A stretch of DNA of 64,000 nucleotides. Source: Maribacter sp. Lineage in GTDB: Bacteria; Bacteroidota; Bacteroidia; Flavobacteriales; Flavobacteriaceae. The notes beneath the pieces are model-generated. The model had not been told where the DNA came from. It saw only the letters and a program-made list of their open reading frames with translations, and did not search any database. Positions 19,106-60,747 of this stretch are shown here, in pieces (position 1 is the first letter of the stretch; every line of letters starts with the position of its first letter). Made by a program: the position numbers and the translations under genes. The stretch covers positions 1 to 64,000 of the forward strand of contig PDPR01000012.1 of NCBI GenBank assembly GCA_002749285.1, given 5' to 3'.

Positions 19106-19220
19106 TTTTAATCGCAGGGCAATGGCCAGAAGGTGTTTGGTTCCCCGGGGCTTGCCCCGAAATAATAAAAGTTTTTTCGGAAGAATGCCTCGTCGTACCC
19201 TCGGGTCGAGGTTGTTTTTA
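19106..19220 (+). repeat. Dispersed intergenic repeat family, copy A
   Basis: TTTTAATCGCAGGGCAATGGCCAGAAGG...CGGGGCTTGCCCCG...GTTTTTTCGGAAGAATGCCTCGTCGTACCCTCGGGTCGAGGTTGTT; aligns with copies B-D. Confidence 0.85.
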
Positions 19221-19233
19221 TTTAATAGGGAAT

Positions 19234-31250: not shown

Positions 31251-31360
31251 TTTAATCGCAGGCAGACCGAAAGGCTTTGGTTTCCTAGGGCTTGCCCCAA
31301 AATGGGAAAAGTTTTTTCGGACGCATACCTCGTATCCTTGGGTCGAGGTTGTTGATTTTA
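31251..31360 (+). repeat. Dispersed intergenic repeat family, copy B
   Basis: TTTAATCGCAGGCAGACCGAAAGGCTTTGGTTTCCTAGGGCTTGCCCCAAAATGGGAAAAGTTTTTTCGGACGCATACCTCGTATCCTTGGGTCGAGGTTGTTGATTTTA. Confidence 0.85.
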
Positions 31361-47687: not shown

Positions 47688-47770
47688 TTTAATTGTAGGG
47701 CGATAGCCAGAAGGATTTGATTTCGCAAGGCTTGCCCCAAAATAATCTTCATCCTCTTGAAGGATAAGCC
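47688..47770 (+). repeat. Dispersed intergenic repeat family, copy C (short/diverged)
   Basis: TTTAATTGTAGGGCGATAGCCAGAAGGATTTGATTTCGCAAGGCTTGCCCCAAAATAATC... then ATCCTCTTGAAGGAT hairpin in place of CCTCG..CGAGG hairpin. Confidence 0.75.
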
Positions 47771-59933: not shown

Positions 59934-60650
59934 ATGGAACAATTTCAAATAGAAACGGCCCAAAATATAGGTATAAATCAAAATACCGCCCATTTGGGGG
60001 ACCGTATGTTGGCCTACTTGATCGATAGTTTCGTCATATTGGCCTATACGATATTGATGATTGTGATGCTTGTGGCCATGGACATCGATTTTGGGGATAT
60101 GTGGGCCTTGTATATGCTCATGGGCTTGCCAGCGTTCCTATACTATCTCTTATTGGAAACCTTTATGGATGGGAAAACCATTGGTAAGGGGTTAATGAAG
60201 ATCCGGGTGGTAAAACTGGATGGTTCCAAACCGGGATTTTCCAGTTATTTCGTTCGTTGGATCCTTCGTGTTATAGACGTTTCCCTAACCTCGGGGGGCT
60301 TGGCGGTCTTAATGATCTTGATACGTGGAAACGGTCAACGTATCGGTGATGTTGCGGCTGGTACAACGGTCATAAGCGAAAAGAGACGGGTAGGTTTGAA
60401 AGATACCTTGTTGAGCGAGCTCCCCGAGGATTATGTGCCTAAATATCCCCAGGTTACGGTCTTTGATGATAGGGGGATGCAGACGATCAAGGAATTGTAT
60501 GGTCGGGCAAGAAGGAATGGGGATCATCAGGTTATTCTACTCTTGAGCGATCAGATCAGGAAAGTAGCCCAGATTACCACGGAGGAAGAACCTTTTCATT
60601 TTGTCGATACGGTCATTAAGGATTATAGCTATTATACCCAACAACTTTAA
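59934..60650 (+). CDS. RDD family membrane protein
   Basis: TAHLGDRMLAYLIDSFVILAYTI...DGKTIGKGLMKIRVVKLDGSKPGFSSYFVRWILR...GNGQRIGDVAAGTTVI. Confidence 0.92.
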   Translation: MEQFQIETAQNIGINQNTAHLGDRMLAYLIDSFVILAYTILMIVMLVAMDIDFGDMWALYMLMGLPAFLYYLLLETFMDGKTIGKGLMKIRVVKLDGSKPGFSSYFVRWILRVIDVSLTSGGLAVLMILIRGNGQRIGDVAAGTTVISEKRRVGLKDTLLSELPEDYVPKYPQVTVFDDRGMQTIKELYGRARRNGDHQVILLLSDQIRKVAQITTEEEPFHFVDTVIKDYSYYTQQL

Positions 60651-60747
60651 TCGCAGGGCGATAGCCGTAAAGGGCTTGGTCCCGCCTCGGGAAGGGAAAG
60701 GTTTTTCGAAAGCACACCTCGTATCCTTGGGTAGGGGTCGTTGATTC
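60646..60747 (+). repeat. Dispersed intergenic repeat family, copy D
   Basis: TTTAATCGCAGGGCGATAGCCGTAAAGGGCTTGGTCCCGCCTCGGGAAGGGAAAGGTTTTTCGAAAGCACACCTCGTATCCTTGGGTAGGGGTCGTTGAT; overlaps the RDD gene stop codon. Confidence 0.85.

Follow-up and report, generated by a model that had tools for sequence, protein, structure and literature searches.

The window (the whole stretch of 64,000 nt that was analysed) contains four intergenic copies of a repeat, A to D, and the question raised by the locus is what kind of sequence this is. The original prediction offered a REP/MITE-type element, a 3′-UTR element and a non-coding RNA family, choosing none of them. A mobile element is the right kind of answer, but neither a REP nor a classical MITE, and the 3′-UTR and RNA options are weakened. 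We place a probability of about 93% on the repeat being a non-autonomous IS200/IS605 (Y1 HUH) element of the PATE type (palindrome-associated transposable element), that is, the left and right ends of a tnpA-only IS brought together without the transposase gene. This reading is based on what can be seen in the sequence: the identity of the ends with those of intact ISs, an insertion with its boundaries, covarying hairpins and a bias in orientation.

All four stretches are present near the predicted coordinates and have the same orientation. Their alignment from end to end, also predicted, holds for A and B only. Copy A, like copy B, is full length (19107..19221, + strand; covariance-model match of 111.9 bits, E = 1.6e-27). 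In copy B the inserted 100 bp (CGCAGG...GTTGAT) occupy 31257..31356 on the + strand as defined by comparison with the empty site, and the covariance-model match extends over 31251–31358 (E = 3.4e-26). Copy C (47688..47766, + strand; E = 8.7e-10) is truncated. Its left end is present and the right-end hairpin block is lost, the nhmmer match covering positions 1–59 of the model only. Copy D (60646..60747, + strand; E = 2.3e-20) has a deletion that removes the 5′ half of the left-end hairpin. The window copies are 70–80% identical, so that most of them are probably old.

The similarity is well above chance level. A BLAST search with copy B finds 39 places in its own genome, the best non-self match having E = 2e-22, and the genome-wide search that had been proposed gives many more than four copies. 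A covariance-model search of the whole assembly returns 54 matches (E = 6e-33 to 4e-5); the model was built on an RNAalifold structure of only 10 pairs, and thus acts mainly as a sequence profile. The family therefore has at least 54 copies in this incomplete assembly (2.07 Mb in 21 contigs, 68% complete). Iterated nhmmer on the stretches around the copies gives a stable family of 40. The consensus of the repeat is TTTAATCGCAGGGCGATAGCCAAAAAGGGTTTGATTCCCCGAGGCTTGCCTCGAAATAATAAAAGTTTTTTCGGAAGCATACCTCGTACCCTTGGGTCGAGGTTGTTGATT, and at about 100 bp the unit is too short for a transposase gene. The repeat was not matched in a plasmid collection, a literature search with the right-hairpin sequence gave nothing, and no paper naming this flavobacterial repeat family was found within the limits of the literature library searched.

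The boundaries of the element are best defined at copy B, the sole site with resolved junctions. Two congeners (G007 and G004, 86% identical over the upstream flank) have an empty site, AAGTTTGTCTTCCTTTACT followed by TTTAAATTATC, where the occupied site reads AAGTTTAACCTTAATTTAAT, the 100 bp ending in GTTGAT, and then TTTAAATCTTC. About 100 bp have thus entered 3′ of TTTAAT (31251..31256, + strand). This target hexamer is also defined by the 5′ profile of 31 copies, in which it reads YYYRAT and conservation ends sharply outside. The 3′ terminus GTTGAT (31351..31356, + strand) is placed by the empty site and by conservation that ends just past it. The last bases of the element, TTGAT, resemble the TTTAAT-like target, and this likeness of target and element end is the arrangement found in IS200/IS605 elements. 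Copy D is missing from the congeners, and its first bases fall on the upstream gene's stop codon (CTTTAA). Since TAA lies within the TTTAAT target, insertion there can spare the reading frame. This start of copy D is at 60646–60651 of the window, and three other copies (L022 at 3992, L032 and L034) begin equally far from the end of the upstream ORF.

A short, non-coding, mobile and multi-copy unit might be a classical MITE that owes its movement to a DDE transposase. In the consensus of 31 copies the 5′ CGCAGGGC and the 3′ GTTGAT are not complementary, so terminal inverted repeats are lacking, and copy B is not flanked by an exact target duplication. The ends match those of Y1 HUH ISs, described below, and a classical MITE is exceedingly improbable.

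There are palindromes near both termini of the repeat. In copy B the left-end hairpin is GGGCTTGCCC with a CTTG loop (31288..31297, + strand), corresponding in place and loop to the left-end hairpin of the intact ISs. The right-end hairpin, ACCTCG-TATCCTTGGGT-CGAGGT (31327..31349, + strand), corresponds to that located directly after tnpA in the intact ISs. Both helices covary. With a structure specified by hand from the hairpins and 36 related sequences taken from many genomes, 90% of the pairs in the end hairpins are standard and 42 cells are double-changed. The mean for shuffled sequences is 15.3, with 0 of 500 shuffles reaching the observed number, a count that is not a probability because the sequences are related; the signal drops at every slide. 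The apex of the right hairpin is ACCC/GGGT in some sequences and GTGC/GCAC or GGGC/GCCC in others. Selection acts on a fold, for which recognition of single-stranded DNA by TnpA would account.

Conserved, covarying hairpins might also be those of a structured RNA family, or of a conserved 3′-UTR or processing element that is part of the upstream gene's transcript and is retained for a regulatory role in the host. In the window all four copies do lie downstream of plus-strand genes, as had been claimed (fabH, rimO and yidC are confirmed, and the gene before D has no NCBIfam match), but this does not extend to the whole genome. There the upstream neighbour, assigned with a simple ORF caller, shares the orientation of the repeat at only 24 of 40 copies, and all four neighbour arrangements occur. 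The mixed gene context, the empty orthologous sites in congeners and the equivalence of the hairpins to those of IS ends all weaken the 3′-UTR and RNA options. Nor does the whole window contain an Rfam match at the gathering threshold (cmscan). The empty sites and the identity of the ends largely refute a regulatory RNA or 3′-UTR element, which is very improbable. A host function is unnecessary to explain the copies.

The shared orientation after plus-strand genes reflects the direction of replication more than gene 3′ ends. In 35 of the 40 own-genome copies the element lies on the locally G-rich (positive-skew) strand (p = 7e-7, although copies close to each other are not wholly independent). 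The same bias is present in the complete genome of a member of another genus of the family (G032), where 17 of 17 first-family copies are oriented according to GC-skew half (one-sided p = 8e-6), as are 19 of 23 partial right-end matches. The skew boundaries in that genome were drawn by eye from 20 sampled stretches, and two copies near 3.2 Mb are close to one of them; dnaA is at 3.29 Mb, close to the switch in skew at which a G-rich leading strand would place the terminus. The orientation of IS608 and ISDra2 mirrors the direction of replication, since their excision and insertion use the lagging-strand template (PMC5371812). By analogy with IS608 and ISDra2 we infer for the repeat a single-strand mechanism, a preference for the lagging-strand template and mobilization in trans; the template strand used in these copies would be assigned by the same analogy. 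A Y1 HUH transposase acting in trans would recognize the hairpin near each end (with CTTG-type loops), and the + strand (as given) would be excised as single-stranded DNA. This would then be inserted 3′ of a TTTAAT-like target, leaving no exact target duplication, and preferentially where the DNA is single-stranded at the replication fork, with the result that orientation would follow replication.

Intact ISs with the same ends occur in other Flavobacteriaceae. In one genome (G067) a 33-base match to the right end starts directly at the end of a 148-aa reading frame, and TTTAATCAATAGAATTCCCCGACGCTTGCGTCG, which has the left-end pattern of the repeat, is located upstream of that gene. The protein belongs to PF01797 (Y1_Tnp, E = 1.8e-33) and has the HVH motif. 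Among solved structures it is closest to IS200-type transposases, with 2xm3 (ISDra2 TnpA; E = 2e-18) at the top and 2a6m (ISHp608 transposase) also matched. Some 15 tnpA copies with readable flanks have one common layout of their ends. The left end comprises TTTAATC, then a short spacer whose last bases are TTCCCCG or TTCCTCG, and a hairpin with a CTTG or CTCTG loop. The right end follows tnpA as ATACCTCG-hairpin-CGAGGT-AGTTCATT, the 3′ part being summarized as GTTSATT. In several of these ISs (L219, L222) the left and right hairpins have nearly the same sequence, as expected if a single enzyme reads both. The left end closest to that of the repeat is TTTAATCTCTTAGGGTTTAATTCCCCGCTGCTTGCAGCG in G178, and the left end of the repeat has one more hairpin, GGCGATAGCC, which none of the intact ISs shows. 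Given the same ends around tnpA, the window repeat is probably a left end and a right end joined without tnpA. The original prediction had named membership of an IS-derived family as an outcome that would tell against it, and a match of the ends to IS200/IS605 elements is what was found.

The association with a Y1 HUH enzyme is shared by REP sequences and REPtrons (PMC6006769), which are also intergenic hairpins, and a multi-copy REP/BIME-type repeat spread by a RAYT (TnpA-REP) would have these properties. In REPs, by definition, the 5′ foot of the hairpin bears the tetranucleotide GTAG or GTGG (PMC6006769), whereas in the consensus of the repeat GTRG is absent from the 5′ foot of both end hairpins. 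In contrast to REPs, the repeat is a unit whose two ends are defined and differ from each other, and it has a target hexamer. Its cognate protein is an IS200-type TnpA that matches those of ISDra2 and IS608, with no RAYT structure matched at E = 1e-3. The absence of terminal inverted repeats, of an exact target duplication and of a GTRG foot in the REP arrangement argues against both a REP and a classical MITE, and spread by a RAYT is highly unlikely.

A decayed cognate tnpA together with its left end is present on contig C20 of the repeat's own genome, and an intact one was not found in that assembly (68% complete). A search of 399 genomes of the family with the G067 protein finds it in 27, and 41 of the 399 have a match to the element. 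Element and cognate tnpA co-occur in 11 genomes (p = 1.4e-5), and in 7 (p = 0.008) once genomes with a known or possible IS end as their match are left out. Other candidates were rejected. An apparent IS on contig C17 with the two halves of the repeat at its ends resembles an autonomous partner, but it has hairpin ends of its own, CCACCTGC...GCAGGTGG, that differ. More probably, a different, decayed IS200 has inserted here into a copy of the repeat. The decayed tnpA of this insertion is at L013 3273–3949 (C17:91272–91948 of the same genome). An intact tnpA on contig C8 has different flanking hairpins. The defining ends of integron attC sites are absent from the repeat.

The repeat has matches in only 6 of 58 genomes (its own and those of relatives). 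A scan of named genomes for the right-end pattern found 31 stretches, mostly in Gelidibacter salicanalis. The G032 genome has 15 near-full copies that are 96–100% identical to the query copy within unrelated flanks, which indicates that the unit of about 100 bp has moved there recently. Comparison with one congener gave no match from which empty sites of these copies might be seen. Despite its near-identical copies this complete genome contains no PF01797 gene, and so the mobilizer has either been lost or comes from outside. Two first-family copies in G032 contain within the loop of the left-end hairpin a palindrome of about 33 bp, CCTTGTGAAATAGTCCTGACGGAATTTCATAGG, or its variants (L140, L141, L144–L153), and a second, related element family also has it in one or two instances. 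This recalls the SMR-A elements of Haloquadratum, whose targets are PATE palindromes (PMC3119063).

PATEs lack terminal inverted repeats, have palindromes near their termini, make no target duplication and are too short for a transposase, and some derive from IS605-type elements by deletion of the core (PMC3119063). The repeat shares all of the PATE features that could be tested here. Like the PATEs of Haloquadratum walsbyi (PMC3119063) it is multi-copy, with ends common to IS200/IS605-type elements; it differs from them in lineage and sequence, in having a tnpA-only IS as its putative parent, and in the additional hairpin of its left end. An ends-only derivative of IS605 is also found in Halanaerobium hydrogeniformans (PMC7290912), but as a single copy of 271 nt that retains part of tnpB, and, unlike the repeat, the elements of that genome have no reported strand preference (PMC7290912). 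The repeat and its partner ISs resemble ISDra2 and IS608 of the IS200/IS605 family in their ends, use of a target, Y1 TnpA with HUH and Tyr motifs, and orientation following replication. The repeat differs from ISDra2 and IS608 in having no transposase gene and in its TTTAAT-like target.

The C-terminus of the cognate transposases may provide a connection to replication. Related TnpAs that reach a natural end mostly finish with QLKLF, QLRLF, QLSLF, QLTLF or QLALY, some with one further residue, and the pattern QL[KRSTA]L[FY] is found in those of L216–L219, L221, L223–L226, L229 and L243. The QLxLF ending looks conserved among TnpAs down to about 55% identity. It resembles QL[SD]LF, the consensus for binding the sliding clamp (DnaN), which is not conserved within TnpA-IS200 members (PMC6006769). 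We suggest, tentatively and at somewhat less than even odds, that this C-terminus binds DnaN, bringing both the IS and its transposase-less derivatives to replication forks and giving rise to the strong replication-linked orientation. If so, these proteins would form a distinct, fork-tethered subfamily of TnpA.

An unexplained dispersed repeat thus becomes a named kind of mobile element, and PATEs of this kind would be multi-copy in several Flavobacteriaceae (54 copies here, 17 in G032 and about 30 exact right-end matches in the scan of named genomes, mostly in Gelidibacter). With the bias in orientation, old copies may be readable as markers of the direction of replication, and the C-terminal QLxLF of the related transposases would allow the way in which IS200/IS605 elements locate replication forks to be tested directly.
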